Below, one piece after another: positions 10,752-26,555 of a stretch of DNA of 30,438 nucleotides. This DNA is from a virus. The position numbers were made by a program, and so were the translations under genes. Under the pieces are notes generated by a model. The model had not been told where the DNA came from. It saw only the letters and a program-made list of their open reading frames with translations, and made no database searches. The stretch lies in IMG/VR virus record IMGVR_UViG_3300027976_000137, positions 1 to 30,438 of that record; one strand, 5' to 3'. The number at the start of each line of letters is the position of its first letter. The stretch's first letter is position 1.

Positions 10752-12343
10752 CTTGATCCTGTCTCCCCAGAATTATACCAGACGTTATAGGAGTAAAGAT
10801 CCAATCCTACCGTCTTGGCCGCTACCGTAGTTCCTGACATTTTAACTTGCACGAAAGTAATATTTTGCATTCCAACATTAGCGGCTGGTTTTGCTACGCT
10901 CGTAGTAGCGGCGTCTGTTTTCTGGTCTACGCTGGTCTGGCGTCCGAAATCAGCCACAAAATTGTAACTAGTTTGCGCGTAAAGGTCGGACTCTAGAATT
11001 GGCTCGATTTGCGTAGTTTCGTACACGGCTGTTTTGGGGAAAGGAATTGGGGCTGAAAGCATCTCATAGTCGTAGCCGACATCTGCAGTGTCATCGACGT
11101 TACGATCCATAAAGCCGGTAGACCCTTCCTTTTTGTAGATCATGATACTTCTGCTATTCGCAGTAACATCACGAGAGATAAGTAATACCTTCCTGTTAAA
11201 AATAACCGCTTGTGCGAGTATGTGATTCAAGGCATCGACACCATGCGACCTATGCACCGACCAGGATTTTAGAAGTGTATCGAATACAAAGTACGAAGCA
11301 CCGGTTTGAACAGCGCCCTCAGAATCCAGGTATGCCGGGAATGGAATTATTATCCGATGATTTTTGTTGTCCCATACGCCGCTTATCAGAGCGAGATCGG
11401 TGCCCGCTAGTATCGGGGGCCGATTTTCCACCATATAGATCCATCTACGTTGAATATTAGCATTCACGCTTAGATCTATCGCCTGCTCTGACCCGTCGAG
11501 GAAGAGATCTCGCAAAGAGACAACACCGCTATCACAAAGAATGAGCGTGTCCCCCTGGTATTTAATATACGCGCTTGGGCCAAGTGGCCTGCCGATCTTT
11601 GCTTGGCCTGCGAGCGCCCATGATGCCGAGTCCGGATAGCTCCCAGAATAAAAAAGCACCTCCCCCGAAGCACATACAAACGCGAGATAGCTGCGATTCT
11701 CGGCGTTATTTGAAACCGTTATTGGGGATATGATGTAAATTTGGGTCTTCTCTTCGACTATCGAGGACAGGTCTACCGTTGTGACCGCGCCCGATATCGC
11801 ATCGATTCCGCCGTAGTGATAAACCGCCCCGTCTGTTGACGCGAGTCCGAACTGGATTAGGTAGATTCTGTGATTGAATGACCCAGCTCCCCTAATGCCA
11901 GCCGTGCCCGGAAAGCCTGTAAAACCCGCAAGGGACCACGTTGCGCCGTCGTACACAAATCCAGGGGCGTAGTTTAATTCAGTGAAAAAATATAAGTGTT
12001 GGTTGAACACAAAGGGGAACATATTGGCATCGCCTAGCGACGCTGCCGAGGTGAACGCGACAGTTGAAAGATCCGTGGCATCGTAAATCTGCATTTTGCT
12101 AATGGTGCTGTTGTATATCGCAGCAAAGATCTCACCACCCAACACACCCAACGCCTTTGGGCTTTTTGTGTTAGCTGCAAAGGTGGTAACTGCATACTTA
12201 GAATCGCCATGCCGTAACGATATACCCGCTTGCGTGACATTGAAGTTGAGTAAATTCTCGCAAAAAGGATTCTGAAGCGCGGCGGTGGGTGTCTTGTCGT
12301 CCACTCCCGCATAGGGTGCTGGTAGATTCGCGGAGTTGGTCAC
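10748..12343 (-). CDS. Tail nozzle / beta-propeller-like protein (gp12- or P22 gp10-like)
   Basis: A 531-aa, strand-rich protein with repeated blocks of hydrophobic strands ending in aromatic turns (for example QHLYFFTELNYAPGFVYDG, NHRIYLIQFG, SYLAFVCASGEVLFYSGSYPDS, DTLILCDSGVVSLRD). It begins with an N-terminal LPAPYAGVDDKTPTAALQN arm. This fits the beta-propeller 'tail tubular B / DNA stabilisation' family that plugs the podophage neck, and the next upstream large gene but one is an adaptor, as in those phages. The GTG start overlaps the upstream TAG as TAGTG, with GAGG just before it. Fold assignment is from pattern and position. Confidence 0.75.
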   Translation of the reverse strand: MTNSANLPAPYAGVDDKTPTAALQNPFCENLLNFNVTQAGISLRHGDSKYAVTTFAANTKSPKALGVLGGEIFAAIYNSTISKMQIYDATDLSTVAFTSAASLGDANMFPFVFNQHLYFFTELNYAPGFVYDGATWSLAGFTGFPGTAGIRGAGSFNHRIYLIQFGLASTDGAVYHYGGIDAISGAVTTVDLSSIVEEKTQIYIISPITVSNNAENRSYLAFVCASGEVLFYSGSYPDSASWALAGQAKIGRPLGPSAYIKYQGDTLILCDSGVVSLRDLFLDGSEQAIDLSVNANIQRRWIYMVENRPPILAGTDLALISGVWDNKNHRIIIPFPAYLDSEGAVQTGASYFVFDTLLKSWSVHRSHGVDALNHILAQAVIFNRKVLLISRDVTANSRSIMIYKKEGSTGFMDRNVDDTADVGYDYEMLSAPIPFPKTAVYETTQIEPILESDLYAQTSYNFVADFGRQTSVDQKTDAATTSVAKPAANVGMQNITFVQVKMSGTTVAAKTVGLDLYSYNVWYNSGETGSR

Positions 12344-14226
12344 TAGCGCCTCATCCCAGGTAGATAGACACCTGGAGAGCTAGTCCTAGATCGTGGGGGT
12401 ATATTCGCGCCTTGTGCTGCTGCCTGCGCAGGTGTTAGTGGCACTGCTGGCGTCCGAGGCACTCCGGTAACTGGAGCTGTCGATTGAGCACCAACCTCAA
12501 ACCCTTTCATCACGTTGTCGAAGTTAACTTTGGCTTTCTCATCGTCCGATATCTGGACTTCACCTTTGTGTGAATCGTAGAGATTTGAATCGATGTTTGC
12601 TTGAGTTACCGCCCGCCGTTGCTCTTCTGATAGCGATGCCCACTGCGGTCCGTAGACCCTGATATTTCCGTACACATGGGTAAGGTTCCCGGCATCGAGT
12701 CCACCAGACTTGTAATCGTCCCAGGTTCGATACTTATTGCCTTTAGTGTCACTGAATGGATGCTCTGGATCGGGAGGGGCCTCTTGGTGCTGAGCTCGAA
12801 CGGTCTGCACGTATCCTTGGTATGTTGGGTCTTCGGTGCCAAATTGCAATAGCTGCCCGGTGTGCTCTTTCTGAACGCCGCGAGTCGATTGATGGAATAT
12901 CTTTTTGTGAACTGCCTTACCGATGCCAAAATCAATTTTGTCGTTAAAGTTATTACTGCTTTTCATCCACGAATTGATTCCCTTCGTGGCCTTACCGCCA
13001 GAAACCGCATCAACTGCACCAAGAGCGGCATATGCTGCCCAGCCATAGGGCCCTAGAAACGGTAGTACCGCCTTAACTCCGTCTGTCTGGGATGCTGCAG
13101 CTCGATCATCAGTATTGCCCTCCGTGTTCATTACGTTCTGACCGACCTGCGCTGCTGCAACTCCAGCCCCTACAAACGGAGCGGCTTGGCTCAAACCTGT
13201 CGCAGAACCGCCATTAGCTAAGACACTTGCTCCTGCCGCTGCGTTGAACGCGCCTCCGACGATATTGGCACCGCCCGCAAGCTTCTGTCCGTCTTGGTAT
13301 TGCTTGTACCCCGAATAGGCTTGAGCTGCTCCGCCCGCTATCTGTAGTCCGGAAACGATAGGGCTCTGAGTAGCTGGGATAAACTGGCCATCGGGTTGAA
13401 CTATAGCCCCGTCATTTCCGACTATCGCGCCGTCAGACATTAAATGGCCCGGGGAGCCATCGGGCATCGCCGCGCTTCCAACTTCGGTTACTGGTGTTAC
13501 GCCTACCAATTGTGGGGCTGCAGGAGCTCCGGTGGTCGGAGTAGCTGGGATAAACTGGCCATCGGGTTGAACTATAGCCCCGTCATTTCCGACTATCGCG
13601 CCGTCAGACATTAAATGGCCCGGGGAGCCATCAGGCATCGCCGCGCTTCCAACTTCGGTTACTGGTGTTACGCCTACCAATTGTGGGGCTGCAGGAGCTC
13701 CGGTGGTCGGAGGAGCTGTGGCACCCTGCGCCGCTGCTTGAGATGGCGTGGTAGGAGCTGCAGCGCCCGACGTCCCACGAGCGGGAACTGCCGGTGCTAT
13801 AGTTTGACCGGTTGCACTTATCTGACTACCGTCCGACATAAATCTAATGCCGGATTTTACATCGACGTGCACAACGGTCGGGGGAGGGCTGCCCACTCCG
13901 GCCTTCATGGCTTCGTTAGCAAGTAGGATACCGCCTGTTCCGGCAATTACTGGCGTAACCTGACCCATCGGGCTATTAGCCTGCGCCTGCTGCTTTCTCT
14001 GTGCCTCTACCGCGTCTTTTTCGTCTTGGTGTTCTGAAATTGCAGCTGATGGGTTGGCTCTGAAAACTTTGCGCCCCGACGCATTGGAAGCTACCGGATC
14101 GTAAACATATCCAGGATATCCAGGAACCACGTACCAGGTTTGACCGCCAGGCGTTGTGACTTTCTCCCAGCTTTGGAATTTGCTGTAGTCAGTGCCAGGA
14201 AAAGGATCATTCTTTACTATCGCCAC
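12343..14226 (-). CDS. Large Ala/Gly/Pro-rich tail or neck-associated protein with a 57-residue tandem duplication
   Basis: I place the start at GTG 14226. It overlaps the upstream TAG as TAGTG and has AGGGGG 6 bases before it, giving 627 aa (M-AIVKNDPFPGTD). The track-length form starting at TTG 14274 lacks a good ribosome site. After a WYVVPGYPGYVYDP segment comes a low-complexity region with two tandem copies of a 57-aa unit containing SDGAIVGNDGAIVQPDG. Next is a hydrophobic Gly/Ala stretch (IAGGAAQAYSGYKQYQ...), then a soluble C-terminal region with HVYGNIRVYGPQWASL. AAAQGA recurs near both the repeat region and the C-terminus. Between adaptor and nozzle genes, a virion role is likely, but I know no family. 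Confidence 0.7.
   Translation of the reverse strand: MAIVKNDPFPGTDYSKFQSWEKVTTPGGQTWYVVPGYPGYVYDPVASNASGRKVFRANPSAAISEHQDEKDAVEAQRKQQAQANSPMGQVTPVIAGTGGILLANEAMKAGVGSPPPTVVHVDVKSGIRFMSDGSQISATGQTIAPAVPARGTSGAAAPTTPSQAAAQGATAPPTTGAPAAPQLVGVTPVTEVGSAAMPDGSPGHLMSDGAIVGNDGAIVQPDGQFIPATPTTGAPAAPQLVGVTPVTEVGSAAMPDGSPGHLMSDGAIVGNDGAIVQPDGQFIPATQSPIVSGLQIAGGAAQAYSGYKQYQDGQKLAGGANIVGGAFNAAAGASVLANGGSATGLSQAAPFVGAGVAAAQVGQNVMNTEGNTDDRAAASQTDGVKAVLPFLGPYGWAAYAALGAVDAVSGGKATKGINSWMKSSNNFNDKIDFGIGKAVHKKIFHQSTRGVQKEHTGQLLQFGTEDPTYQGYVQTVRAQHQEAPPDPEHPFSDTKGNKYRTWDDYKSGGLDAGNLTHVYGNIRVYGPQWASLSEEQRRAVTQANIDSNLYDSHKGEVQISDDEKAKVNFDNVMKGFEVGAQSTAPVTGVPRTPAVPLTPAQAAAQGANIPPRSRTSSPGVYLPGMRR
13371..13712. repeat. 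171-bp near-perfect tandem duplication
   Basis: The unit at 13371-13541 repeats at 13542-13712. I count a single clear mismatch inside the unit (cgggcatc versus caggcatc) plus slight decay at the far end. The period is 57 codons, so the frame is kept. It encodes the SDG/PDG-rich repeats of the 627-aa protein. Confidence 0.9.
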
Positions 14227-15083
14227 TATACGCCCCCTGTACCTGGCCATGAACCCACGGGAGTATTTGGCCAATCAATCGATCCGTTTATGTCGTACGC
14301 TGCGCTCACTACCGTGGCCCCATTCTGTCGGCCTAGTGCCGATCGGACCGAACTGCGCCACTTCGCATCGTAGGTTTGAGCAGACTGAAATTGTTGCTTC
14401 GCCTCGTACCAGGCCCAGCGCAACCCTTCGATAAACAACTCATCGTCTAGGATTACGAAATCAGTGTCAGCAGTGACGGGATACGGCTCGAAGTACGGTA
14501 CCCATTCGGCTGTTCCGTCCGATATGGTTCCTGATGATCCGGTCAATCGAGCACTACCTGATGTTCCGGACGTTACGCAGTAGTAAATATTGTTAATGCC
14601 AGATCGGATATTGCCTAGAACGTAAGCAGTAGCGGGAGCCCAGTTTTGAGGCCAAACGTAATTCCTGGACACATACGCGATGGCGTATTGCGTGGTGTTA
14701 TCCTGACCCGCTGGTGAAATCTGAAAATAACCTGCTGATTTTTGCAGGTAGGTATATGCACCAGTTGAGAATGTATACCCCTGAGCGCCGTTAATCTGAT
14801 ACCCAGCGTACGGACTGGATATATTAACCCCGTAGGTTTGGAACGCGAGTTGTGCGTTGGACAGTGGACCAGCTAAAGGAATCTGATTTGTCACACCCCA
14901 CTGAGTGCCCGTGAGCATTCTCAGGAAATCGCCAGGGAGTTGGTAGTTTGCAACTCCCAACGATGTGGTGAACGTGTAAATTCTCTTGAGCTGGTCCCAG
15001 CCGTCTTGATACTCGAGTAGCTTGCCAGCAACGTACTTAAATAGGGATAGATACTGCCGAGCGGCAGGCGTGGTAGAGCCCAC
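14226..15083 (-). CDS. Head-tail adaptor / tail tubular A-like protein
   Basis: GTG at 15083 gives 285 aa. The helical start (ARQYLSLFKYVAGKLLEYQDGWDQLKRIYTFTTSLGVANYQLPGDFLRML) matches the podophage adaptor layout: two helices, a W, an 'F.T..G...Y.LP.D..R' strand and loop. It continues into a beta-rich middle (YAIAYVSRNYVWP, AYVLGNIRSGINNIYYCV) and a helical end (ELFIEGLRWAWYEAKQQFQSAQTYDAKW). The frame stays open upstream to 15161 and adds ATVAELINEFLDRINQP, which looks like a genuine first helix, so the true N-terminus probably lies near 15152 despite lacking a standard start codon. Role: joins the portal to the nozzle. Confidence 0.75.
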   Translation of the reverse strand: MGSTTPAARQYLSLFKYVAGKLLEYQDGWDQLKRIYTFTTSLGVANYQLPGDFLRMLTGTQWGVTNQIPLAGPLSNAQLAFQTYGVNISSPYAGYQINGAQGYTFSTGAYTYLQKSAGYFQISPAGQDNTTQYAIAYVSRNYVWPQNWAPATAYVLGNIRSGINNIYYCVTSGTSGSARLTGSSGTISDGTAEWVPYFEPYPVTADTDFVILDDELFIEGLRWAWYEAKQQFQSAQTYDAKWRSSVRSALGRQNGATVVSAAYDINGSIDWPNTPVGSWPGTGGV

Positions 15084-15521: not shown

Positions 15522-16061
15522 TTAGTTCGTACTCGTGTAACCGACTGCGCAGCATGTTGTTGCTGTCGCCGTCGTTCCCATTGCAAAATTAAATGCGGTA
15601 TTTGTGTTCGTTCGTAAAGGGACTGGCAATGCATGCGCGTAGTACGCCACGCCGTCTAGTGTCGAGTTGCCAACAGCTCCCACATATATCTGAGTAGCTC
15701 CGTCCTTAAATGCCATTGAGGACGCGACTGCTGCAGTGTTGAAGCACGAGATTGATGTAACGTATATTCTTACGCCTGCCCCGCCTGCTGCCTTAATCAC
15801 AACGTCAGTAACGCCGACATTAGACACTGAACATGATTGCCATGTATTGGCGGCTGTACCGTACGGCGAAAACGAGGTATCGCCACCCGGAGCAACCATA
15901 ACAACCTGCTGGTTACCGTAGATGTCGACGTTCGCCCGCTCCATCGGTGTACCGGGTGTCGGAAATGCTCGAGGCGTTGCAGCATTTCCAGGCTTAACCT
16001 GAAACCCATCAGAAAGCGCGATACCCGGCCATAGTGCGATTACTACCAGTAGTTTTTTCAT
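15522..16061 (-). CDS. Sec-exported beta-rich phage protein
   Basis: ATG at 16061 overlaps the upstream TAA (TAATG), giving 179 aa. The start MKKLLVVIALWPGIALS-DG is a clear Sec signal peptide with an A-L-S cleavage site. The mature part is strand-rich: TWQSCSVSNVGVTDVVIK, RIYVTSISCFNTA, YYAHALPVPLRTNTNTAFNF, and ends in CCAVGYTSTN with several cysteines that could pair in the periplasm. This second half matches the kind of 'chemically inert beta-sandwich' modules in phage structural proteins. An export signal inside a virion operon is unusual. Possible roles are a surface-exposed superinfection factor or an envelope-assembled component. Confidence 0.75.
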   Translation of the reverse strand: MKKLLVVIALWPGIALSDGFQVKPGNAATPRAFPTPGTPMERANVDIYGNQQVVMVAPGGDTSFSPYGTAANTWQSCSVSNVGVTDVVIKAAGGAGVRIYVTSISCFNTAAVASSMAFKDGATQIYVGAVGNSTLDGVAYYAHALPVPLRTNTNTAFNFAMGTTATATTCCAVGYTSTN

Positions 16062-16522
16062 TAGCTGCAGATCCAACCGGTAGACGTAAATTGCACGCAG
16101 ATAATCGGCTTGATACCCGTAAGAGCTGCAAACACCGCGTCAACTGCAGCACCGTTGATCGTGTCACTACCCGCAACGGCTGGAAAGATAAGAGGCGCCC
16201 CGGCAGTTGTATTGAGCAAGATATGCACCCGGCCAATCGTATTTACGTTTGCATCTGGAAGCGTCCATGCAAGGACACCATTTGCGCCCGTGATACGATG
16301 AACGTAATTTGTTCCGCTCAGTGCAGCGCCCGTAGCCTGATTAGTCCCAGTTCCCGCAACTGTCTCAACATTATCTTGAGCTATAATCGCGCCGTTCTGT
16401 TTGCAAATCCTAAGTTCCTGGTTAGGAGTAAACGCATTGCCCAAAAATTGAGTGCAGGCATCAGCAAGAGCCACGCTCGAACTGACCAGAACAACTGTAA
16501 GTAGCGTTAGAATTCGTTTCAT
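16061..16522 (-). CDS. Sec-exported cysteine-containing beta-rich protein
   Basis: A 153-aa protein starting MKRILTLLTVVLVSSSVALA-DAC with a canonical A-L-A cleavage site. The mature 133 residues are strand-rich with five cysteines (DAC, LRIC, PIIC, WIC and the one before the end), again consistent with disulphides. The middle has short Gly/Asn/Thr-rich turns such as GTGTNQATGAALSGTNYVH, typical of surface beta-sandwiches. It is coupled to the next Sec protein by TAATG. Function unknown. Confidence 0.75.
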   Translation of the reverse strand: MKRILTLLTVVLVSSSVALADACTQFLGNAFTPNQELRICKQNGAIIAQDNVETVAGTGTNQATGAALSGTNYVHRITGANGVLAWTLPDANVNTIGRVHILLNTTAGAPLIFPAVAGSDTINGAAVDAVFAALTGIKPIICVQFTSTGWICS

Positions 16523-16523
16523 T

Positions 16524-17312
16524 TTATACCTTTCTAGTACGTCCGGGACTTCGTGTTAGCTCTTCTGGGTTAATCTCGAGGGTCTCAACTGGCTCGCTCT
16601 CTTCTGTCGCTTGTACTGCTTTTAGATCAACAGACCTAACTTTACGTCCACTAGCTCGGAGTGATTCGAGCTCTGCTTTTAGTCGAGCGTTCTCGAGCTG
16701 CATTCGGTCGGCTTTACCAGCCTGACCATCAGGGGAATTGATTTTGAGCCATTGTTGAGCAAGGTCTCGAACTTCAAATCCAGATTGGTCTTTAATCTGC
16801 TCGCAAGAAACTTCGTCCATTTCGGCGACCTGCTCGAGGGTGTGAATCCCGAACATATGAAGCTCCATAACAGTCTGGGGCTGTATCCATTCGAAGTCTT
16901 CGATGGAATGACCATCCGGCAATTTACCATCACGAAAGTACCTATACTGCCGGTTAAATTGCCGCTTCGAGAATGCATCAGCTACGTCCTCTTTGATGTT
17001 GGTATCGCCTCTAGTCTCGACACGAATCATCTCTTTGATTTCGTCGAACGCGTCTTTAAACGGAATTCCCGTTCTAGGGTCAATATCAAATGCAGGCTTG
17101 CCTTTCTCATCTAAGGCTCGAACAGGCTTGCCGTTTGGATGCGTTGCAATCTCGCCATCATCGCGCTTTACCCAAAGTGGTCTAGCCCTAAACGACATCA
17201 CCTTAACGCGAGAAAACTTTACGTTCTGCTTGCCCGATTGTTTGAGTGTTCCATCGGCATTGATTTGAACATCAGCCAAAAGTGGATTGTCAAATGTTTC
17301 TATTCCGTCCAT
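16524..17312 (-). CDS. Hypothetical capsid-neighbourhood protein with HhH-like helix and coiled coil
   Basis: A 262-aa, charged protein. The N-terminal part is strand-rich and includes VKFSRVKVMSFRARPLWVKRDDG. At about 150-190, VMELHMFGIHTLEQVAEMDEVSCEQIKD resembles the helix-hairpin-helix lead-in used by phage proteins ('LxxxGIxTVEQLAxxxD'). A coiled coil follows (MQLENARLKAELESLRASGRK, about 204-224), then an acidic tail. This architecture recurs near capsid genes in phages, though I have no function for it. AGGAATCTC precedes ATG. Confidence 0.65.
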   Translation of the reverse strand: MDGIETFDNPLLADVQINADGTLKQSGKQNVKFSRVKVMSFRARPLWVKRDDGEIATHPNGKPVRALDEKGKPAFDIDPRTGIPFKDAFDEIKEMIRVETRGDTNIKEDVADAFSKRQFNRQYRYFRDGKLPDGHSIEDFEWIQPQTVMELHMFGIHTLEQVAEMDEVSCEQIKDQSGFEVRDLAQQWLKINSPDGQAGKADRMQLENARLKAELESLRASGRKVRSVDLKAVQATEESEPVETLEINPEELTRSPGRTRKV

Positions 17313-17328
17313 GAGATTCCTATCAAAA

Positions 17329-17348
17329 GGGGAGGAATTACCCTCCCC
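17329..17348 (-). terminator. Hairpin followed by TTTT between two capsid-region genes
   Basis: On the minus strand GGGGAGG, a 6-base loop and CCTCCCC form a perfect 7-bp stem followed by TTTT. It lies between the 162-aa gene and the 262-aa gene. It fits a weak intrinsic terminator that lowers expression downstream of the highly expressed capsid genes. Confidence 0.5.
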
Positions 17349-17355
17349 CCGTTAA

Positions 17356-17844
17356 CTACACGCCCACGAACATCCGTGTGCTGGCAGTGCATGCAGTATT
17401 TGCCGTAGAACCACCCACAGTGGACGAGAGAGTGAGACCTGCAATCAACGTCGTTGCTGCGTCATCAACCGATCCCGCCGTTGCCGTTGTGTAGAGCTTA
17501 GTACCCAACACAGCCAAAGTGAGCGCTGAGACCTTGAATGTTGTCGCACCGTCTTCGCGAAGGAAGAAAGGTCCAACCGGAGCGTAACCGAAATCCCCTG
17601 ACACAAAGTCAAACTGTGGCACTACAATATCCGCCACGGGCCCGACGGACGCAGCGAGCGCCGTCGTGAGAGGTTGGATGGTTCCGTCCGCCCTGCTAAC
17701 AATACAAGCCTGGAAGGCTGTAATCGTAGCTGAGGCCTTAACGTACATCCACGTGGCGCCCTTAATGTTAATCTCTTGCAGTAGAGCATTGAGCGATGTT
17801 GATCCATCACTCGCATTTAGACTGTATTTGGCTGAAGCTGTCAT
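17356..17844 (-). CDS. Capsid decoration / head-fibre-like protein
   Basis: A 162-aa, Ala/Thr/Ser/Val-rich beta protein with no signal peptide. A short N-terminal helix (SLNALLQEINIKGATWMYVKA) is followed by strands separated by small turns, among them FYAPVGPFFLREDG-like and LGTKLYTTATAGSVDD segments. Small beta-sandwich proteins placed right after the major capsid gene often decorate the shell. GGAGAA lies about 10 bases before the ATG. The assignment is by composition and position. Confidence 0.65.
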   Translation of the reverse strand: MTASAKYSLNASDGSTSLNALLQEINIKGATWMYVKASATITAFQACIVSRADGTIQPLTTALAASVGPVADIVVPQFDFVSGDFGYAPVGPFFLREDGATTFKVSALTLAVLGTKLYTTATAGSVDDAATTLIAGLTLSSTVGGSTANTACTASTRMFVGV

Positions 17845-17862
17845 GATTTTAAATTCTCCAGT

Positions 17863-18846
17863 TTATGAGTCGTACATAACGGCGTTAAGTGCTGGGTTGT
17901 TCATCGTGAGATTCCCAATTCCCAGTAAAATCGCAGCTTCGACTAGTTGGTTAAATGACGTGCGCTTATTGAGAGGCTGGAAGTTGTACCCGTTGTACAT
18001 CTTGAGCTTGAAAGTATTGGTGTTGAGTAGATATCCACGGTCCGCCGCGATATGCGAAAGTCCCGAAAATAATTTACCGCCCGCCAGTACAATCGTAATC
18101 CCTTCAATAACGAAGTTATCGAAGTTCGCTTCGTACATTTCTTTATCAACCGTTATTCTCGACTTACCGGAGAACGAATCAGCTGCAGCGTTGAAGTACG
18201 TATTGCCGAATAGTCCGAGGTCCGGCTTGTCAGTACCGCGAACAATCAAGTTTTTGACGTAGCGGGTACGCGATTCGATGTTACTCGAATCGGTAGCAGA
18301 GCCGAACGTCGAAACTAGGTTCACCGATGAGTGCCGAAGCGCCGAATAGGTAGCTCTCGAGAGCCCACCAATCGTACCAGTTGAGTTTGTGTCAGGTAGG
18401 TATCCTCGAATGCCCGCAAAGGCCTTGCCGCCGTAGGTAGTGCCATCACCCTGCATCATGGCCTCCATGACGTTCCAGGTGGATTCGTCAGCCACCTCTT
18501 GCCGCTCGTCCATGAGGTCCAGGAAAGCGCTCGGACCTTGGTTCTGAGCTTGCTCGAGCTCGTTGATCACTGTTGGCGTAACGATAATTTTTGGAGTGAA
18601 CTGGAATGCCGCGAGGGTGTTGTTGTAACCCATCGCTATCTCTTCATCAGCGTCAATCAGCTGCACGTACTGATTCTGAGCAATCCGGATGTTTTCGGAA
18701 ATAAAGCGTCCGCCGGAAATAGTCTTGATATTTCCCTTTTTACGCAACTTCCAAATGAACGGAATGTGATCCGCTACGGCATCAGCGGGCTTTTTTTCCC
18801 GGAGTTCCCAAGTGGTCGAGTATATGTCACTAAAATTATCTGGCAC
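17863..18846 (-). CDS. Major capsid protein (HK97-fold type, podophage form)
   Basis: A 327-aa protein with no signal. The pattern matches podophage coats: a short N-arm (IYSTTWELREKKPADAVADHIPFIWKLRKKGNIKTISGG), ENIRIAQN, an A-domain strand block, a helical spine (SAFLDLMDERQEVADESTWNVMEAMMQGDGT), 'GIRGYLPDTNS..GTIGGLSRATYSALRH' and a beta-rich P-domain end (YGYNFQPLNK...). A strong AGGAGG lies 7 bases before the GTG start, as expected for the most abundant product. It follows the scaffold gene, the classic order. It should polymerise into the shell around the 351-aa scaffold. Confidence 0.85.
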   Translation of the reverse strand: MPDNFSDIYSTTWELREKKPADAVADHIPFIWKLRKKGNIKTISGGRFISENIRIAQNQYVQLIDADEEIAMGYNNTLAAFQFTPKIIVTPTVINELEQAQNQGPSAFLDLMDERQEVADESTWNVMEAMMQGDGTTYGGKAFAGIRGYLPDTNSTGTIGGLSRATYSALRHSSVNLVSTFGSATDSSNIESRTRYVKNLIVRGTDKPDLGLFGNTYFNAAADSFSGKSRITVDKEMYEANFDNFVIEGITIVLAGGKLFSGLSHIAADRGYLLNTNTFKLKMYNGYNFQPLNKRTSFNQLVEAAILLGIGNLTMNNPALNAVMYDS

Positions 18847-18878
18847 TTAAAGCCTCCTTTTTACAGGAAGCCTAAGTT

Positions 18879-19934
18879 CTAGTGCTCCCTGTTGAGTTCT
18901 ATAGCCTTAATCAGAGCAGCCCTATTTGAGAGCTTCCCTGAAAGGTTCGAGTCATTGACTCTAGGTGCGGTTCTGCCTGGACTTGCAGCGGACGCACGCC
19001 GTGATTTATCGATGTGTTGTTGAGTGCTTTGTGTGGAGACTTTTACCGGGTCACCGGATACCTTGCCCCCTAAGTACTTGTAGGCTTCGCGCACTACAGT
19101 TTCGAAGGTAGCATCAGGGAATCTGCGGGCCACTCCAGCCTGAAACCGCTGGTCTTGGGTAAGAGATCCCAACTCTCTGGCGAATTCGTTACCCGCTTCG
19201 CTGTTATCGAGCAACGCGGGGAATACGGTTTCACCAGTTCGAGTTTTCTCGGAAGTTAATTTACTAAAGATCGTACCAAACGTCTGAACGGTTCTTTGGA
19301 AGTTAGCTTCCTCTTTGTCCTTTTTATACTCTGCGGCCATGCCCTGTAAAGATTTGATCTCATCTCGAAGCTCGATAGGAATTGCCGCGCTGTTTTGTGT
19401 ATGTGCCCTATCAAGATCGATACCGATTTTTTTGAGCTCAGCCTTTACCGCCGACGGATCGCCTTTTTTAAACTCGTTAATGAGCGCGAGTGCTTCCATG
19501 ATGGCCTTGTCGGGCGAAACGCCTTCAGTGCCACGAGCTTCAATGTAAGGGGCTGCCATCTTGCCTAGTTCGCGCCACGTCTTGCCCTCTTCGCGCGCCT
19601 CTCGCTCCGCTTTCTGTGCCCGCGAGATCTCCGCCGTCCTAGAATCGTGAATGCGTCGAAACTCTTTTTGAATGCCGGTCACATCCTTCAGTCGCCAGGC
19701 TGCTTTACCATTGGCGCTAAACTCGGATGGTGGCTCTGGCTCCGCCTCGACTGCCTGCTTCACTTCGGTTGTAGTCGGCGCTTTTTGCTCTGGGTCCTTA
19801 TCTTCCCGATGGATCTCTACAGCCTTTTGCAACGCATCCCGATTCGAGAGGCCATCGAAATCTTTAGGTGCTTCGACCGTCTGCTCTGCTACGGGCGCTT
19901 CGAGGTTAACGTCGTTGGTTGGTATTTCGTTCAT
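18879..19934 (-). CDS. Scaffolding protein
   Basis: A 351-aa, highly charged, mostly helical protein with acidic N-terminus, central coiled-coil-like segments (KAEREAREEGKTWRELGKM, DEIKSLQGMAAEYKKDKEEA) and a basic C-terminal stretch (DKSRRASAASPGRTAPR). Located directly before the major capsid gene, it fits a capsid assembly scaffold. The unusual point is a motif present at both ends: L-S-N-R-x-A-L-x-K-A-x-E-x-x-R-E at residues 29-44 and 335-350, 11 of 16 identical. AAGGAATTAT precedes ATG 19934, which overlaps the upstream stop as ATGA. Confidence 0.8.
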   Translation of the reverse strand: MNEIPTNDVNLEAPVAEQTVEAPKDFDGLSNRDALQKAVEIHREDKDPEQKAPTTTEVKQAVEAEPEPPSEFSANGKAAWRLKDVTGIQKEFRRIHDSRTAEISRAQKAEREAREEGKTWRELGKMAAPYIEARGTEGVSPDKAIMEALALINEFKKGDPSAVKAELKKIGIDLDRAHTQNSAAIPIELRDEIKSLQGMAAEYKKDKEEANFQRTVQTFGTIFSKLTSEKTRTGETVFPALLDNSEAGNEFARELGSLTQDQRFQAGVARRFPDATFETVVREAYKYLGGKVSGDPVKVSTQSTQQHIDKSRRASAASPGRTAPRVNDSNLSGKLSNRAALIKAIELNREH

Positions 19935-20428
19935 ATAATTCCTTGCTCTTTGAGTACTTTATCCATTCCCGACTTCTTGGCGGCTTCTAGTTGATTTTCG
20001 GCCTGCTTATTGAGCTTTTCCCTAATCTCTTTGGGGTTAGCACGGACCATCTCGGTAGCTTCAATGGAAGCTTTTCGCCTGTCGCGCTTTATGGCTTTGG
20101 CCTCGGCTTTATTGCCCTTATCCATATACCCTCGTGGCTCTTTGACGCTGCTAAATGTTAAGAGGTTGTGCTCTTTGTCGAGTCTGTTCCACTCCTCTCG
20201 CGACTCGATAACTCTGCAAGCGCCTTCGTGATAAGCGGGAGCCATTGAGTCAAATATGACGCTTGGAGCAACACCAAACTGATTGTTTGGGTTGGGAGGA
20301 TAGCCCTCTACGAATTCTTTGGTTTTCGGATCGACATATCCAACGAGACCTTTTAGGCCTTGAGGAAACTGTGGTGGCCACTCTGCTTCGTGCTCATTAC
20401 CGTAATTGAATATCTTTGATTTAATCAT
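19931..20428 (-). CDS. Charged hypothetical protein before scaffold
   Basis: The start is ATG 20428, overlapping the previous gene's end. A TTG at 20440 is weaker. The 165-aa protein begins with an aromatic/Pro part (IKSKIFNYGNEHEAEWPPQFPQGLKGLVGYV, then YPPNPNNQFGVAPSVIFD). It ends in a long Lys/Arg/Glu helix (NKAEAKAIKRDRRKASIEATEMVRANPKEIREKLNKQAENQLEAAKK). The head with FGVAPSVIFDSM...HEGACRVIESREEW is a phage pattern I recall only as 'hypothetical, near capsid'. A role in assembly is possible. Coupled to the scaffold gene by ATGA. Confidence 0.65.
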   Translation of the reverse strand: MIKSKIFNYGNEHEAEWPPQFPQGLKGLVGYVDPKTKEFVEGYPPNPNNQFGVAPSVIFDSMAPAYHEGACRVIESREEWNRLDKEHNLLTFSSVKEPRGYMDKGNKAEAKAIKRDRRKASIEATEMVRANPKEIREKLNKQAENQLEAAKKSGMDKVLKEQGII

Positions 20429-20705
20429 CGTACCCGTCAAACTCGTGCATCATTAACATCAACAACAGCTCTTCCTCTTTTCTCTTCTTTCTCTTTTTCT
20501 CTTTGCGTACTGCTATTCGGTTAGCTTCCTCAAATGCCTCGTGTAACGTCTGCTTTTTGAAGCGGTCGAGCTCTTTCTCTTCCCTCGACTTCCTAGCCTT
20601 TCGCTTCGGTCTTGCATCCTCATGGTCGTAGTATACACCCGTACTTGGTGGCGGTCCTGTGTCAGTTATTCCAGCTGGAGAGCGTAAGAAGAACAGGAGC
20701 GTCAT
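20421..20705 (-). CDS. Small Lys/Glu-rich phage protein
   Basis: A 94-aa protein. The head is TLLFFLRSPAGITDTGPPPSTGVYY; the tail is a strongly charged helix (REEKELDRFKKQTLHEAFEEANRI...KEKKRKKRKEEELLLMLMMHEF). The upstream overlap is ATGA. The short hydrophobic/proline head plus charged helix recurs in phage structural operons without a known function. No signal or membrane span is evident. Confidence 0.6.
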   Translation of the reverse strand: MTLLFFLRSPAGITDTGPPPSTGVYYDHEDARPKRKARKSREEKELDRFKKQTLHEAFEEANRIAVRKEKKRKKRKEEELLLMLMMHEFDGYDD

Positions 20706-21970
20706 TGGCCTACTCCCGTTGACGACAGAAGTCGAAGAGTAGATCCGCTGGGAGCCGTGTACGCAACAAAACCAAGTTTACCGATCCTTGCCGTGGGAGT
20801 TCCTGCGCTTAATGATGATGCATCGATTAGATCGAGAGCTGCGATAGTATCAGAGTTAGTCGTATCACTTCCTGTCGTAGCGGCTGCGGAGACGGTAACG
20901 ACAAGAGCTCCGTTTGCTGCGTTTTTTCTTGAGCGAAACGTATAAGACGCCGCACCGCCTGGTGCGCCATTGAGCGCTATATACATGCTCTTTAGCGTGA
21001 AAGCCGATCCAAGATTATGCGTTGGCGCTTCGCTTGATTGCCAAAGGTTCGAGGAGCCTTGGATTGATGTGTAACGAGCCAGACCGGCAGTATTTAGACT
21101 TCCTCCACTATTGACCATCAAAACGGCTTCGCCGTCCGTAGTCGGTGCCCACTTTACCCCCCATCTTCCAACGCGAGCAGTTGGAGCTGGGCCCGCACTG
21201 GGCACAACTTTGATTGCCACGAGGTCACCGGCAACTACCGAAAATGAGTTAGCAGTGTCATTGCATGTGGTCGCCGCAGCTCCCGAGATTGTGCATGTAA
21301 GAGTCTGGTCGGTGCCGTTTTTATTGAGTGTTATTACGTAGCTAGCACCAGCACCAGCCACACCAACCAAATCGACGTATAGACTGCTAAGGGTTCCCGC
21401 TGTGGGGAAAACTTGGTCTCTATTATAGAGGGTCGCGTTATTGCCCACTGAGCCCTGCAACCCACCGTATTGGGTTGATACGGTCGAGAAGGCAGCAGTT
21501 CTACTACTGCCCAGAATTACTGATTCTCTGGCTCCTCCCGAAAAGGTCCACGATTGACGAACATTCACTGGAGACGTTGGCGTTCCCGTTGGGATTGATC
21601 GAATGGATAATACGTCTCCAGCCACAAGCGATGTTGTGTTAACGGTATCGGTACACGTTGTCGCGGTACCTGAAATCGTGCATGTGATGCTCGTGGCCGC
21701 ACCATTCTTCATCAGCGTAAAGGCCCATGACTTACCGGCAGCTGGAGCTGTGGCTACGGCTGCCGCGAAATCCTTAGCCGTTCCGGCAAACGGAATTACG
21801 TTCCGAACGTCACTTTCTACTGTTGAGTAAAAGAGCGTGTTACCTGTCGCATGGGAGTAATTCGTGACAGTTGACGAGGGAACCTTATTACCGCCCGAGC
21901 TGATCGGAGTGTCGAGCGCTTGGGCTTGGAAGCAGAGCAGTAATAAGACTGCTAGTACTATCCTGTTCAT
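20702..21970 (-). CDS. Sec-exported protein with three beta-sandwich-like repeats
   Basis: A 422-aa protein starting MNRIVLAVLLLLCFQAQA-LDT, a signal peptide with an A-Q-A cleavage site. Three related units lie at about residues 60-140, 190-275 and 310-400: AxTxxxxxxxL..G..SY...LxKNG, then TCTISG-(T/A)-(A)TTC-(T/N)DT, then AGDxxxIxxxPxxxPTxxxxxG. The first two keep a Cys pair in the TCTISG...TTC strand-turn-strand. The third lacks it. The unit is familiar from phage and metagenomic surface-like proteins, but I cannot name the function. It is coupled downstream of the 461-aa Sec protein. Confidence 0.75.
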   Translation of the reverse strand: MNRIVLAVLLLLCFQAQALDTPISSGGNKVPSSTVTNYSHATGNTLFYSTVESDVRNVIPFAGTAKDFAAAVATAPAAGKSWAFTLMKNGAATSITCTISGTATTCTDTVNTTSLVAGDVLSIRSIPTGTPTSPVNVRQSWTFSGGARESVILGSSRTAAFSTVSTQYGGLQGSVGNNATLYNRDQVFPTAGTLSSLYVDLVGVAGAGASYVITLNKNGTDQTLTCTISGAAATTCNDTANSFSVVAGDLVAIKVVPSAGPAPTARVGRWGVKWAPTTDGEAVLMVNSGGSLNTAGLARYTSIQGSSNLWQSSEAPTHNLGSAFTLKSMYIALNGAPGGAASYTFRSRKNAANGALVVTVSAAATTGSDTTNSDTIAALDLIDASSLSAGTPTARIGKLGFVAYTAPSGSTLRLLSSTGVGQ

Positions 21971-23352
21971 TTGTAGAATAGGTTTATGGTCAAGTCGTTT
22001 AACTCTACCGCTGCCGTATCGCTATCAGCGATTCCCGTGACTGTCGTAATTGCTATGCCTGTCGAGAATGGAATGCCTGTGTCATTGAACACGTTCGCCG
22101 CTGCTCCGGCTGGAAGCATGATAGAGAAAAATACTGAAGCGCCAGCGGTTGGTGTAGATGCCGCATTGTGAAAGACAAGCTTTCTAGCGGCTGCGTTTGA
22201 ATTGTAAATATACCAGCCGTAGAGTTGCCCGGCTGACGCCTTGACTACCGTTGCGTTTGTCGTGGCTGCGGATACGAGATGATACGTGGTGAAACCACCT
22301 GTGGTTGCCGGGGTATTCTGAGTTAGCCACGCTGTAGTGTTCGGCGTGTTACCGGGTTGAACTGTCCACGTACCGGATTGCGATACGGGAATGGCTGCCT
22401 GGTCTGATGCGATGGTCACTCTGTGCGACCCCGTTCCTGTGTTTCCGGCTCCCATCAAAGGCGTAACACCGTTGATTTGAGCTACGTTGACGGCTTGGTT
22501 ACCCGATATAGAAACAGGCTGCGTGGCCTGCCAGAAAGTTCCAGTCACTGCCGTCGTCGGCATGGTTAGGACGTCCACTTGTAACTCACCGCTGGTATCG
22601 CTCTTGATGATTCTGGCGTTTGTGCCGTCCGTAGCTGAACAAGCTAAGCCTTTAGTCGGAATCGCTGCCGCTGTTGTGGCTACTGCGTCATCGATTAGCT
22701 GTGAGCTCGTAAGCAGAGCCCCAGATTCTTGAGTAGCGAAGGTTCCCGCATTGGTTACTGCGTGGGAAGGCACGCTTACTAACGAGACCGGCTGTGTAGC
22801 TTGCCAGAAGGTTCCCGATACCGGTTGAGTAACAGCTGACCCATCTACTTTCCAAGCTGTGGTATTGGCAGTATTCCCAGGCTGCACGGTCCATGTACCG
22901 GATTGCGTTACTGCCGTGGTCGGAGCTGAGATAACGGTAACGGATCCAGTATTACAAGCTGTAACTTTACCGTTGAGCGTCGATAGAGTTGCCTCTGTCG
23001 CAAGTGCTGACGTGTTGAGATTGGTGCCAGCGTTGCAGGTAAGCGTTCCGCTGACTGGCTGTGTGGCCTGCCAGAACGTGCCGGTCACTGCAGTAGTAGG
23101 AGCTGAAGAGACAACCACAGCGCCGGTATTACATGCCGTAATTTTCCCATCGATTGCCGATAGTGAGGTGTTGCCAGTGTCTTGTTTTGCCTCTGTTGCA
23201 AGCCCCGCCGTGCTTATTGTGGCGTTTACATCGAGCGCCCCGCCAGTGACGTTAGCTATATCGGTGCCGTCCCATATACGCACAGTGCTCTGAGCAAATG
23301 CGCAGTTTCCAACGATAAGTGACACCAGAATTCCTGTAACTTGGGTCCTCAT
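21967..23352 (-). CDS. Sec-exported repeat protein with phage-structural C-terminal domain
   Basis: The start is ATG 23352 (MRTQVTGILVSLIVGNCAFA-QST), which gives a signal peptide and an ATGA overlap; the longer frame to 23397 runs into the upstream gene. The 461-aa product has ATEAKQDTGNTSLSAIDGK (52-70) and its partner ATEATLSTLNGK (118-129), three G-T-F-W-Q-A-T-Q-P-V-S copies (91-101, 180-190, 271-281), two S-G-T-W-T-V-Q-P-G-N-T copies (151-161, 326-336) and a C-terminal domain (about 355-461) with SAGQLYGWYIYNSNAA and FSTGIAITTVTG. Such modules are common in phage virion proteins, normally without a signal peptide. Confidence 0.8.
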   Translation of the reverse strand: MRTQVTGILVSLIVGNCAFAQSTVRIWDGTDIANVTGGALDVNATISTAGLATEAKQDTGNTSLSAIDGKITACNTGAVVVSSAPTTAVTGTFWQATQPVSGTLTCNAGTNLNTSALATEATLSTLNGKVTACNTGSVTVISAPTTAVTQSGTWTVQPGNTANTTAWKVDGSAVTQPVSGTFWQATQPVSLVSVPSHAVTNAGTFATQESGALLTSSQLIDDAVATTAAAIPTKGLACSATDGTNARIIKSDTSGELQVDVLTMPTTAVTGTFWQATQPVSISGNQAVNVAQINGVTPLMGAGNTGTGSHRVTIASDQAAIPVSQSGTWTVQPGNTPNTTAWLTQNTPATTGGFTTYHLVSAATTNATVVKASAGQLYGWYIYNSNAAARKLVFHNAASTPTAGASVFFSIMLPAGAAANVFNDTGIPFSTGIAITTVTGIADSDTAAVELNDLTINLFYK

Positions 23353-23807
23353 AGTTCTACATACTCCACAATTCCCGTACCAGCCGCGGAGTAGCAATAA
23401 ACAGCCCCCGTATATTTTACGGCTCCGTCAGCTAAAAGAATATTTTCGCCTGGTGCGTACAGGGGACTCGAGGCAGAGGCCGCACCACTAAAGCTTACGT
23501 TAACCGACACTGGAGAATTCGGGGACACTCTGACTTTGCCGCCCTTGCGTGAGCCATTAGCTGCCAACACAAGTGTGGTTGAATCACCAGCCGTTACCCT
23601 TCCTTCGCTCGAGGTAGATGCGGACGCCAATGATGCCGAAAAGCTGCCTGATATGGGCATGGGGTTAAGCGCATTGTATTCAACGCCAGTGGAATCAACG
23701 GAAACTACAGCCTGCAGCTCCGTGCCATTGGCCTGTTTGAATACGCCAACCGGATAGCTATTAGTCGGGCTGTTGGCTACATTCTGATTGAGGGTTACGG
23801 TTGCCAT
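23349..23807 (-). CDS. Small beta-rich virion-like protein
   Basis: A 152-aa protein without signal peptide, Ser/Ala/Val/Gly-rich. NSPTNSYPVGVFKQANGTELQAVVSVDSTG near the start and a Gly-rich end (GENILLADGAVKYTGAVYCYSAAGTGIVEYVEL) suggest an all-beta fold similar to short phage tail or head accessory proteins. It is adjacent to the portal with a one-base stop/start overlap, so it is part of the head operon. No family name is certain. Confidence 0.65.
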   Translation of the reverse strand: MATVTLNQNVANSPTNSYPVGVFKQANGTELQAVVSVDSTGVEYNALNPMPISGSFSASLASASTSSEGRVTAGDSTTLVLAANGSRKGGKVRVSPNSPVSVNVSFSGAASASSPLYAPGENILLADGAVKYTGAVYCYSAAGTGIVEYVEL

Positions 23808-26512
23808 TATTCGGCCTCCTCCTCATCGATTTCTAAGTGCGTAGCCTCACCGGCTGCGTCTCTAATAATTCGCCCGGAGCGCTTTCGCTTTTTAGATTTT
23901 GGCAGATGAACCACTACGGGAGTTGGGCTAGTCTTCATTTCCTGCAGCGTCTTTTGCATCTCGACTAGCCCTCTGGCTACATCGACTTTGTGTTCATCTT
24001 GCAATCGCGCTTCGGTCGCCCACTTCTCACGCTCAGATGACATTTTTTCCTGAGCTTGCAGGATGGTCTTTTGCTTCTCGAGTCCTACGTAGATCTCTTC
24101 GAGCTGTTGTTTTTGCTCTGCTACTCGCTGATCGAGGATTAGTTCGAGTTGCTTAAATTCGGTTTTTGAAGCTATCTCTTGAGCGGCAAGCATAAACTCT
24201 GCACGCTTACCGGCTAACTCCTCCTGAGCTAACGCAATGTCAGCCTGTATCTGTTGGGCTCGAAGCTGCAGATCTGAGGATGAGGCTCCCGCCTCGTTTT
24301 GCATCTTGATTTGCTCGAGCTGTAGAGCAAACCCATCAAGACGTTCCTTCTGCTGCATTTTGGCAGATTCGATGCCCTGATCCATCTGCATTTGAAGTTG
24401 AGTTAGTCGATCGTCAGTCATTGCCTTTTGTTCGGCGAATTCCTGCTTTCTCATCTCAAGCTTGAGTTTCTCGCCTTCGATGGCGCTATCGAGCTTTAGT
24501 TTCTCTAGATCAATGTTCGGCTCTGGCTCTTTTGGCTGACTGAACTTATCGATGGTCGATTGGATGGCGTCTATAACTTCGTCAGTGAAAAGCTTGCCGT
24601 CTGTGAGCTCCGCTATGACGTGCTTGGCCACCTTCAGTTCAGCGTCTGCCAGTTCCGGCATTTTCTCTGCAGTGTTGGCGATAGATTCCAGCATTTTGGT
24701 GATAGCATCCGCCGTCTCTATTGCCTGCCTCTTTTTCCACTCCTGGTTGATCGAAATGGTGGAATCGGTCTCGAATTCCATGCGGAAGCGATTGCGTCGA
24801 TTGTTCTTGAGAAGTTCGAGCGCTGGTATGTAACGCTGCTTATCTTCCTGGTCTAACGTCTGCGGCGTAATGTACTCGTCAATGGTCTCATCAGAGAACA
24901 TCTTTAAGCCCATCTCCATTCCGAGTTGATAGTTATCCTTCATCCACTCTTGGATCTTGCGCTGATAGGGCTCCATACGGTTCATCGCAAACTTGCCCTC
25001 GAGTTGTAGGCCTCGATAGGTTTCGTTCGATGATTCGCTGCCGACTTGGCCCCGGATTAGGTTGGAAAACCCCGTTATGTTGTAGAATCTATCGAGCTCC
25101 TGCACGAAAGCTGCGTTCATGTTCTGCAGCCCCTTCATCAACTCATCGATCGGGAAATATGCGACTAGCTTGGACAGATCTCCATTGCTATTCATTAGGG
25201 TCTGTTCAAGGTTTGGGATACCCATTCCGGTACCCTCACCTGTGGCCCAATTTTCCCCGATTAGTGACGCCAGCGGCTTAACTGAGCTATCAAAAAGGAA
25301 TCTAATACGCACCGCCTTAGTAAGCTGCATTGAGCGCGTAACTATCGAGCTAATATTGTCGAGTAGATCCTGCACTTGGAAGTATTCAGGCGTTGGCCAA
25401 AAACTTCGCGTTGATTGATTTATGACGAGAGGCTCGGTACACGGAAAGACGCTCGAGAGGCCATAGGGATCCGAGTTATCGGGCTTTTCTCCGTCCTTGG
25501 GTTGCATCTGTTTGGGCTGGAAGAAATCTGTGGAATCCTGCGCCAGCCATCGGACTTCCTTTAGAACTGAGTCGTAGTATTCTTGGACTGTGATCGACTG
25601 CTTTCCTGACTTGTAGTCGGCTAAGTCAGTGATAGCGAGCTTATCAACTGCAGCCTGTCCGAACTTCTCTTTGAATTCGCGGTAACTGTAGGGATACTCC
25701 ATTCCAATGCGCGTTACTTTGCTCCACCGGACAGCGTCCGGATCTACCACTAGGCCGCCATAGTCACAGGCATCAAAGTACACCTCCTCGTTGTCTATAG
25801 TGACCATCTGCCCAGTAGAAACGAACGGTCCTAAATCGTCCTCTTGAACCATCGATGGATCTATCTGCTCTCCCTCGGGAGTGAAGAATAATGGCGGTAA
25901 CGGTTCTTGTGTTGCGGCTGGTGCCTGGTCTGGTAGTGGCTGCCCGTCCGGTCCCATCATTGGTTCCGGAGGAGGTGGTGGCTCTTGTTGCTGAACCTGC
26001 AGCCTTACTTTCTCTTCTTCTTCGATTTCAGTGCTTCGATAACACCATCTTCCCCAACCAAAGTTGGTAACCAAAAAATCATCATTCGCCGCTGAGAATT
26101 CCGGAAAGGCTTCAAAGGTCTTCAGAATTCCTTTTGCAAACCTCTCTCCAATGACGCAAGCAGTGCGACCATATGGGTCGTCGCCTTGTGTATCCTTGAG
26201 AACCGGAACCGCAAGCCTAGCAAGAGTAATCGGTTGTCGTATTTTCCAACAGGACCACCAAAGGGGAAATCTGACCCATCGCTTGGCTTCGTAGAGCTTT
26301 CCAAGATTGTTTCTCTTTTCGACTTCATTCCACGACTTATCAGCTATGTTTTTGTAGTCTTCTCGTTTCTTCTTGCCATCAACAAAGAACTGGCGCACAT
26401 CCTCAATCGTAATGGTATCGCCGTCCTCTATCTGCTTATTGAGTGCTGATCTATCGGGCGAAATGTCTGATACACCTAGCTGCTTGGCTTTTGAGTCGCG
26501 CTTTTTAGCCAA
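23807..26512 (-). CDS. Portal protein, long form with C-terminal coiled-coil crown
   Basis: A 901-aa protein beginning at TTG 26512, with AAGG upstream. The core (about 40-600) matches podophage portals: WWSCWKIRQPITLARLAVPVLKDTQG and GWGRWCYRSTEI, then VYFDACDYGGLVVDPDAVRWSKVTRIGMEYPYSYREFKEKFG. Later come IFPIDELMKGLQNMNAAFVQELDRFYNITGFSNLIRGQV-type and SSNETYRGLQLEGKFAMNRMEPYQRKIQEW helices. Residues about 640-860 form an extended Gln/Glu/Lys coiled coil. The tail has KSKKRKRSGRIIRDAAGEATHLEIDEEEAE. The portal drives DNA entry and exit. Long C-terminal barrels exist in P22-like portals. The length here is at the high end. Confidence 0.88.
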   Translation of the reverse strand: MAKKRDSKAKQLGVSDISPDRSALNKQIEDGDTITIEDVRQFFVDGKKKREDYKNIADKSWNEVEKRNNLGKLYEAKRWVRFPLWWSCWKIRQPITLARLAVPVLKDTQGDDPYGRTACVIGERFAKGILKTFEAFPEFSAANDDFLVTNFGWGRWCYRSTEIEEEEKVRLQVQQQEPPPPPEPMMGPDGQPLPDQAPAATQEPLPPLFFTPEGEQIDPSMVQEDDLGPFVSTGQMVTIDNEEVYFDACDYGGLVVDPDAVRWSKVTRIGMEYPYSYREFKEKFGQAAVDKLAITDLADYKSGKQSITVQEYYDSVLKEVRWLAQDSTDFFQPKQMQPKDGEKPDNSDPYGLSSVFPCTEPLVINQSTRSFWPTPEYFQVQDLLDNISSIVTRSMQLTKAVRIRFLFDSSVKPLASLIGENWATGEGTGMGIPNLEQTLMNSNGDLSKLVAYFPIDELMKGLQNMNAAFVQELDRFYNITGFSNLIRGQVGSESSNETYRGLQLEGKFAMNRMEPYQRKIQEWMKDNYQLGMEMGLKMFSDETIDEYITPQTLDQEDKQRYIPALELLKNNRRNRFRMEFETDSTISINQEWKKRQAIETADAITKMLESIANTAEKMPELADAELKVAKHVIAELTDGKLFTDEVIDAIQSTIDKFSQPKEPEPNIDLEKLKLDSAIEGEKLKLEMRKQEFAEQKAMTDDRLTQLQMQMDQGIESAKMQQKERLDGFALQLEQIKMQNEAGASSSDLQLRAQQIQADIALAQEELAGKRAEFMLAAQEIASKTEFKQLELILDQRVAEQKQQLEEIYVGLEKQKTILQAQEKMSSEREKWATEARLQDEHKVDVARGLVEMQKTLQEMKTSPTPVVVHLPKSKKRKRSGRIIRDAAGEATHLEIDEEEAE

Positions 26513-26555
26513 TTGGAAGCCTTAAATAATCAAGTGACCACCCGTTTGCTGTCAT
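26505..26555 (-). other. 16-aa minicistron bridging large terminase and portal
   Basis: ATG at 26555 overlaps the large-terminase stop (ATGA). The frame reads MTANGWSLDYLRLPIG and ends with TAA inside the first codons of the portal (26505-26507). It would carry ribosomes across the gap to the weak TTG start of the portal. Translation is plausible, but unproven. Confidence 0.3.

Follow-up and report, generated by a model that had tools for sequence, protein, structure and literature searches.

Among the proteins that phages encode with a Sec signal, lambda Lom and Bor, T5 Llp and Cor are lipoproteins or membrane proteins found outside the virion. Cleaved signal peptides are also known from virion proteins, the coat proteins pIII and pVIII of filamentous phages, which have membrane anchors and undergo assembly at the membrane, with no lysis of the cell. 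The head fibre and decoration proteins of tailed phages are cytoplasmic and have no signal peptide, and two of them, Hoc and phage L Dec, which are functional counterparts of the proteins studied here, are able to bind finished heads. The T5 decoration protein pb10 can also be added to heads already completed (PMC5292684). Here we analyze the window, by which we mean the whole 30,438-base stretch of the IMG/VR virus record IMGVR_UViG_3300027976_000137, whose head module contains the genes of four proteins with predicted Sec signal peptides, named SP1 to SP4 (179, 153, 422 and 461 amino acids, respectively).

SP1 to SP4 resemble head fibre, decoration and knob proteins (7-7-1 fibres, phi812 spike, KHP30 capsid protein, Caulobacter S2B gp004c) in their domain types, in their place within the head module, presumably in their beta folds, and in the coupling of their genes to those of the portal and major capsid protein (MCP) region, but they differ from these cytoplasmic proteins in having Sec leaders and paired cysteines. 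With Lom, Bor, Llp and Cor they share the Sec signal; unlike them, they are built of fibre domains, carry no anchor and are coupled to head genes. The difference from pIII and pVIII lies in the phage itself, a tailed double-stranded DNA phage with portal, terminase and MCP. The SP set combines the cytoplasmic decoration protein with the exported accessory protein, and no described system with such a set was found in the open-access literature on signal peptides in phage structural modules, as the initial annotation of this DNA had supposed; no description of two-compartment virion assembly in any tailed phage was found in that literature either. Judged by sequence, the phage is an Mx8-like podovirus: its MCP is 31-36% identical to those of Mx8, Mx9 and BUCT555, and MCP, portal and the order of head and tail genes fit this group. 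No exported proteins were found in the head modules of Mx8, Mx9 and BUCT555. The reading that we favor is that SP1 to SP4 would be virion-type fibre or decoration proteins rerouted via the Sec pathway.

Signal peptides, cysteines and predicted folds of SP1 to SP4

The four leaders (MKKLLVVIALWPGIALS in SP1, MKRILTLLTVVLVSSSVALA in SP2, MNRIVLAVLLLLCFQAQA in SP3 and MRTQVTGILVSLIVGNCAFA in SP4) have an n-region with K or R, then a hydrophobic stretch free of charges and an A-x-A or A-L-S site, with predicted cleavage before DG, DA, LD and QS, respectively. A home-made rule gave Sec/signal peptidase I calls for all four proteins and for none of the 22 other window proteins tested. The open reading frames (ORFs) and leaders reported in the initial annotation were confirmed. 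The rule called 9.6% of 868 gene starts vs 1.6% of internal start-codon controls, taken as false positives. According to this calibration, four leaders in about 33 genes would arise by chance with a P of about 0.002, so a chance origin is unlikely. The start of SP4 was set at ATG 23352, where the gene overlaps the stop of the upstream gene h152 by 4 bases and a GGAG sequence is found upstream; a 476-amino-acid version from TTG 23397 was discarded, since it would bury the signal peptide and ATG 23352 is better placed. None of the four leaders contains a lipobox (the VGNC of SP4 is off consensus), and no outer-membrane barrel end was seen in the four proteins. Searches of these proteins against Pfam and PHROGs gave nothing useful.

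The paired cysteines were also present as described initially, with exactly four in each mature protein. Cysteine counts were compared between exported proteins and other proteins of the same environmental loci (L numbers below), taking one protein per cluster. Even and odd non-zero counts were 31:7 in exported proteins vs 195:277 in the others (Fisher P 1.2e-6), and 31:3 vs 195:160 among proteins with at least two cysteines. In the SP3 domain, a cysteine pair is located at residues 53 and 63, on two adjacent strands (47-56 and 62-72) that are predicted to form a hairpin. This pair was present in six of six exported occurrences (window, L112, L114, L116, L124 and L126; P 3e-4) and in none of eight non-exported ones (L107, L108, L109, L110, L115, L117, L118/L120 and L122/L123). 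The export call of L126 depends on an internal ATG (leader MKRLSLLLLLVASADRALA), a start picked after the fact once the cysteine pair had been seen; with L126 counted as non-exported, the test gives a P of 0.003. Within SP3 itself, repeats 1 and 2 carry the pair and repeat 3 has lost both cysteines together. In addition, SP1 has four cysteines vs none in its non-exported homologues from OscarSo and TinyTimothy, two Microbacterium phages. These patterns are those predicted for disulfide formation following real export. When the SP4 C-terminal domain was taken by itself, two or more cysteines showed no significant association with the signal peptide along the tree.

The beta-rich character attributed to the set held for the two domains modelled, the SP4 C-terminal domain and the SP3 repeat, both all-beta (pLDDT 88-89), and the phage-structural repeats attributed to it were found in SP4 (TQPVS/QSGTWTVQPGNT) and SP3 (three of about 105 residues) and not in SP1 or SP2. 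The best BFVD matches of the SP4 C-terminal domain model (pLDDT 88) were uncharacterised phage proteins (TM 0.87-0.89), and its PDB matches were generic jelly rolls. The SP3 repeat model is C1q/TNF-like, and its matches (Z 7-8) include the phage 7-7-1 tail fibre, the phi812 spike and the KHP30 capsid protein; these phage matches (9rkv, 9eul and 7dn2) comprise fibre knobs and one capsid protein. Function was not drawn from PDB matches, which are those of jelly rolls in general (best Z 7.9-8.0). From the models, the SP3 and SP4 domains are candidates for a knob- or cement-like role.

Slot exchange in close relatives and recurrence in environmental phages

Three contigs (L005/G001, L006/G002 and L007/G003, the last also L076) carry an MCP about 90% identical to that of the window. 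The SP2 slot encodes a protein with a signal peptide in all four phages of this group. Its leaders have diverged (MKRILALFLSLNLIGVASAHA, MKKFILAVFFSINLIGITNAHA and MKKIACSIVVALLAFVSGSAHA in the relatives), and those of L005, L006 and L007 all retain a K-rich start, a hydrophobic core and an AxA directly before DACT or DSCT; in the mature proteins the cysteines are conserved and the remainder is replaced between relatives. The SP1 slot of the three relatives holds a non-exported protein of 112-131 amino acids. At the SP3/SP4 slot, G001 and G002 encode a non-exported 597-amino-acid fibre-like repeat protein, and G003 (L076) encodes an exported SP4 orthologue lacking the repeats (38% identical overall) along with a different exported protein of 447 amino acids at the place of SP3. 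Since the contents of the SP1 and SP3/SP4 slots differ among relatives, exported and non-exported proteins interchange at the same positions. The leaders retained in diverged form, the excess of even cysteine counts and the cysteine pair that tracks the signal peptide support the exported destination claimed for these proteins. No match to cultured phages was obtained in a nucleotide search with the module or by tblastn with SP2, SP3 and the SP2 of L007.

Some minor features were observed at these slots. A 119-amino-acid non-exported homologue of the SP1-slot protein of L005, L006 and L007 is encoded elsewhere in the window (5664-6023, - strand), as if displaced by SP1. Glycosyltransferase-like and methyltransferase-like genes, recognised by eye, adjoin the gene of the 597-amino-acid protein (L005:6909-8203 and L006:6909-8203). 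The sole likeness between SP3 and the unrelated 447-amino-acid protein of L076 is a C-terminal tail, LRLLSSTGVG[QK] (20702-20740 and 7745-7781, respectively); it may be a docking peptide, a reading set aside here because the same bases hold the start region of p94 with its ribosome-binding site.

The SP4 repeat/knob family gave more than 500 matches in IMG/VR, the best 80 of which were examined. The SP4 domain occurs mostly without a signal peptide, and 17 or more of the 80 loci carry one, a count in which L044 and L066 were read by eye and L009 and L010 correspond to the window's own phage; the SP3 domain, also mostly devoid of a signal peptide, is exported in at least six loci. In unrelated phages, the exported SP4-type genes often adjoin genuine head or tail genes, such as those of an HK97-type protease and MCP (L041), tail tubular proteins (L057), a head protease (L059), TerL and portal (L060), MCPs (L082 and L086) and an internal virion protein (L066), and the exported SP3-domain gene of L124 adjoins a structural protein gene. 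Runs of two to five signal-peptide genes, mostly of unfamiliar families, were found in phage structural regions (L034, L059, L060, L086, L116 and L129). When the SP4 C-terminal domain was placed on a tree, at least five gains or losses of the signal peptide fell on starred branches, and the best tree had eight. The nearest homologue of this domain, a protein of L011 with 63% identity, has no signal peptide and is encoded between portal and scaffold/MCP, which is the same slot; the same domains also occur in non-exported form in Caulobacter S2B and KSC and in OscarSo gp10, adjoining the portal. The domains of SP4, SP3 and SP1 are homologous to structural-region proteins of other phages, and SP2 has homologues only within its own group. 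A genome scan revealed SP4-like proteins in contigs of metagenome-assembled genomes from several phyla, with exported versions in Acidobacteriota, Acetobacteraceae, Armatimonadota and Nitrospiraceae bins, although all of these may be phage contigs that were binned along. Altogether, the data suggest that exported virion-type domains recur in many unrelated environmental phages, as part of the particle coat or as a decoy sent outside before lysis, and the export and disulfide folding of such domains are likely to be real.

Split fibres and the possible fate of the exported proteins

The typical non-exported fibres of the family have an N-terminal anchor of about 50 amino acids (MADN.TLN.GTGG...NPLPV), followed by repeats and a knob. 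A profile of this anchor, run against 1802 ORFs, matched 24 proteins of at least 230 amino acids and two short ones, of 163 (L041:5183-5674, E 4.8e-18) and 148 amino acids (L057:3900-4346, E 8.6e-16). The two short genes are located immediately upstream of an exported repeat/knob gene, with a 4-base overlap, and a long anchor protein (L063:4238-5389) is likewise encoded immediately upstream of an exported fibre. The fact that anchor genes directly precede exported fibre genes indicates a separation of the anchor from the outer part, with export of the latter alone. In the window, h152 has the same position as the L041 and L057 anchor proteins and, by analogy, is a candidate base protein.

In the mechanism that we propose, SP1 to SP4 would be produced late in infection from the head operon, whose location was confirmed by the identification of portal, MCP and TerL through PHROG. 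The gene layout is that of translational coupling: SP3 overlaps SP4 and p94 by 4 bases each, SP1 overlaps SP2 by 1 base, and SP2 starts one base past p262. No promoter-like site was detected before SP4/SP3 or SP2/SP1 in a pattern scan for the sigma-70 type. These overlaps and the lack of such sites argue that the four genes are working parts of the head operon and not inserted cargo. The host Sec system would then export the proteins and signal peptidase I would probably remove the leaders, and the cysteine pattern makes it likely that folding and disulfide formation would take place in the periplasm. Coupled expression, Sec export and disulfide folding are, taken jointly, highly probable. The exported proteins, in which no membrane anchor was seen, may then wait in the periplasm as soluble trimers or fibres and, upon holin opening or lysis, might bind to finished heads, which is the least certain step. 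Binding would probably occur via the upstream non-exported base protein h152, with the SP protein supplying the outer half of what would be a split fibre. A possible gain would be disulfide-stabilised or periplasm-modified fibres unable to fold in the cytoplasm.

Virion decoration at lysis is favored because of the identity of the domains, the replacement of exported proteins by non-exported ones of fibre type at the same slots, and the way in which fibres are split. The second destination proposed in the initial annotation is supported as regards export and gained no support as regards surface anchoring, for which neither a lipobox nor an outer-membrane barrel end was seen, with decoy or exclusion functions as rivals of decoration. 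We put forward the whole chain, including the joining to the head at lysis through a base protein, tentatively and at slightly less than an even chance. Several points weigh against it: the likeness of h152 to the fibre anchors is weak and not significant, we know of no precedent for tailed-phage heads capturing periplasmic proteins, a cultured phage with the full exported set was not found, and some exported genes have zero or an odd number of cysteines. Furthermore, signal peptides were scored with a rule for n-, h- and c-regions rather than with SignalP, some of them being read by eye, and the loci were picked for their likeness to SP3/SP4, so the frequencies found in them do not represent phages in general. 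The broader proposal, that tailed double-stranded DNA phages repeatedly split their fibres into a cytoplasmic head base and an exported, disulfide-bonded outer half that matures in the periplasm and is joined at lysis, is possible although more doubtful.

Alternatively, the exported knobs might be decoys or receptor blockers that occupy receptors from the periplasmic side or are released when the cell lyses, which would spare the progeny from being wasted on debris or would exclude competitors. This would be in agreement with the knob-like TNF/C1q and jelly-roll folds and with the fast swapping of exported cassettes between close relatives, as expected for receptor-facing genes, and would account for export without virion entry. 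We nevertheless consider it unlikely, since no outer-membrane anchor was seen, production alongside head proteins would be of no help early in infection, and the coupling of the exported gene to a non-exported fibre-anchor protein is left unexplained. A role in envelope remodelling or lysis, exerted in the periplasm or at the infected cell's surface (through cell-wall binding, aggregation or biofilm), would be consistent with the export and disulfide bonds proposed here and with the carbohydrate-binding modules among the fold neighbours; it appears improbable for genes that are placed between those of portal and MCP, inside the head module and not in a lysis cassette, and whose domains are found elsewhere in non-exported structural-region proteins. 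Exported proteins encoded in phage tail or late regions, such as lambda Lom and Bor, provide a model for lysogenic-conversion cargo (moron), but the 1-4-base overlaps with neighbours, the lack of promoter-like sites before the pairs and of a lipobox, and the distribution of four genes at two places make this very improbable. Hydrophobic N-termini by themselves would fit equally an uncleaved leader, tethering virion proteins or their assembly to the inner membrane or acting as a capsid-binding peptide; there is little probability of this, given the AxA end conserved immediately before the mature start and the cysteine pairs, which imply that the mature chain leaves the cytoplasm. Chance hydrophobic N-termini or misassigned start codons, conceivable with a false-positive rate of 1.6%, are hardly credible in view of leaders in four of four proteins, of their orthologous counterparts in relatives and of cysteine statistics that agree with them.

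If the exported halves reach virions, as in the decoration at lysis that we prefer, tailed-phage assembly would not be confined to the cytoplasm, and in many environmental phages the virion surface proteins would contain disulfide bonds and could be modified in the periplasm. If they stay off virions, phages would be putting fibre domains of their own to use as exported decoys or as tools acting on the envelope. In either case, these genes form a recurrent and easily recognised class that, as far as we found, has no name, and they provide a sequence rule for annotating many so far unknown phage genes: a signal peptide, a fibre domain and even cysteines, clustered in head or tail modules.

Gene order of the window and minor features

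Nearly every gene of the window is on the - strand, and the features of the head module and its borders are listed in Table 1.

Table 1. Head-module features of the window, from TerL to the tail genes
Feature	Position	Strand	Basis or description
TerL	26552-28090	-	PHROG
Portal protein	23807-26512	-	phrog_12082
h152 (152 aa)	23349-23807	-	no signal peptide; immediately upstream of SP4, 4-base overlap; candidate base protein
SP4 (461 aa)	21967-23352	-	signal peptide, TQPVS/QSGTWTVQPGNT repeats and C-terminal jelly-roll-like domain (~340-461)
SP4 C-terminal domain	21970-22335	-	63% identity to L011 non-exported fibre
SP3 (422 aa)	20702-21970	-	signal peptide and three ~105-aa TNF/C1q-like repeats
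p94	20421-20705	-	start within SP3 stop; conserved downstream border of variable slot
p169	between p94 and scaffold	-	gene order
Probable scaffold	18879-19934	-	position and weak PHROG match
MCP	17863-18846	-	phrog_9953
Terminator-like hairpin	17330-17350	-	after gene downstream of MCP; pattern only
p162, then p262	between MCP and SP2	-	gene order
SP2 (153 aa)	16061-16522	-	signal peptide and mature protein beginning DACT
SP1 (179 aa)	15522-16061	-	signal peptide and domain common to Microbacterium phage structural-region proteins
p132	between SP1 and tail protein	-	gene order
Tail protein	14226-15083	-	followed by further tail/ejection genes

As regards the host, the window contains no tRNA and showed no kin with a named host. 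A small lipoprotein (MKKVLLGLVIVLLSGCGEIYL..., 1388-1573, - strand) is possibly an o-spanin (Rz1) and, as such, would indicate a diderm host. A 643-amino-acid protein (12343-14274, - strand) has two near-identical direct repeats of about 60 amino acids (PTTGAPAAPQLVGVTPVTEVGSAAMPDGSPGHLMSDGAIVGNDGAIVQPDGQFIPAT). Finally, a 240-amino-acid ORF that is open at the contig end (2-721, - strand) contains many QVxxQV/QVRDQVNEQV repeats and has the look of a long coiled coil.

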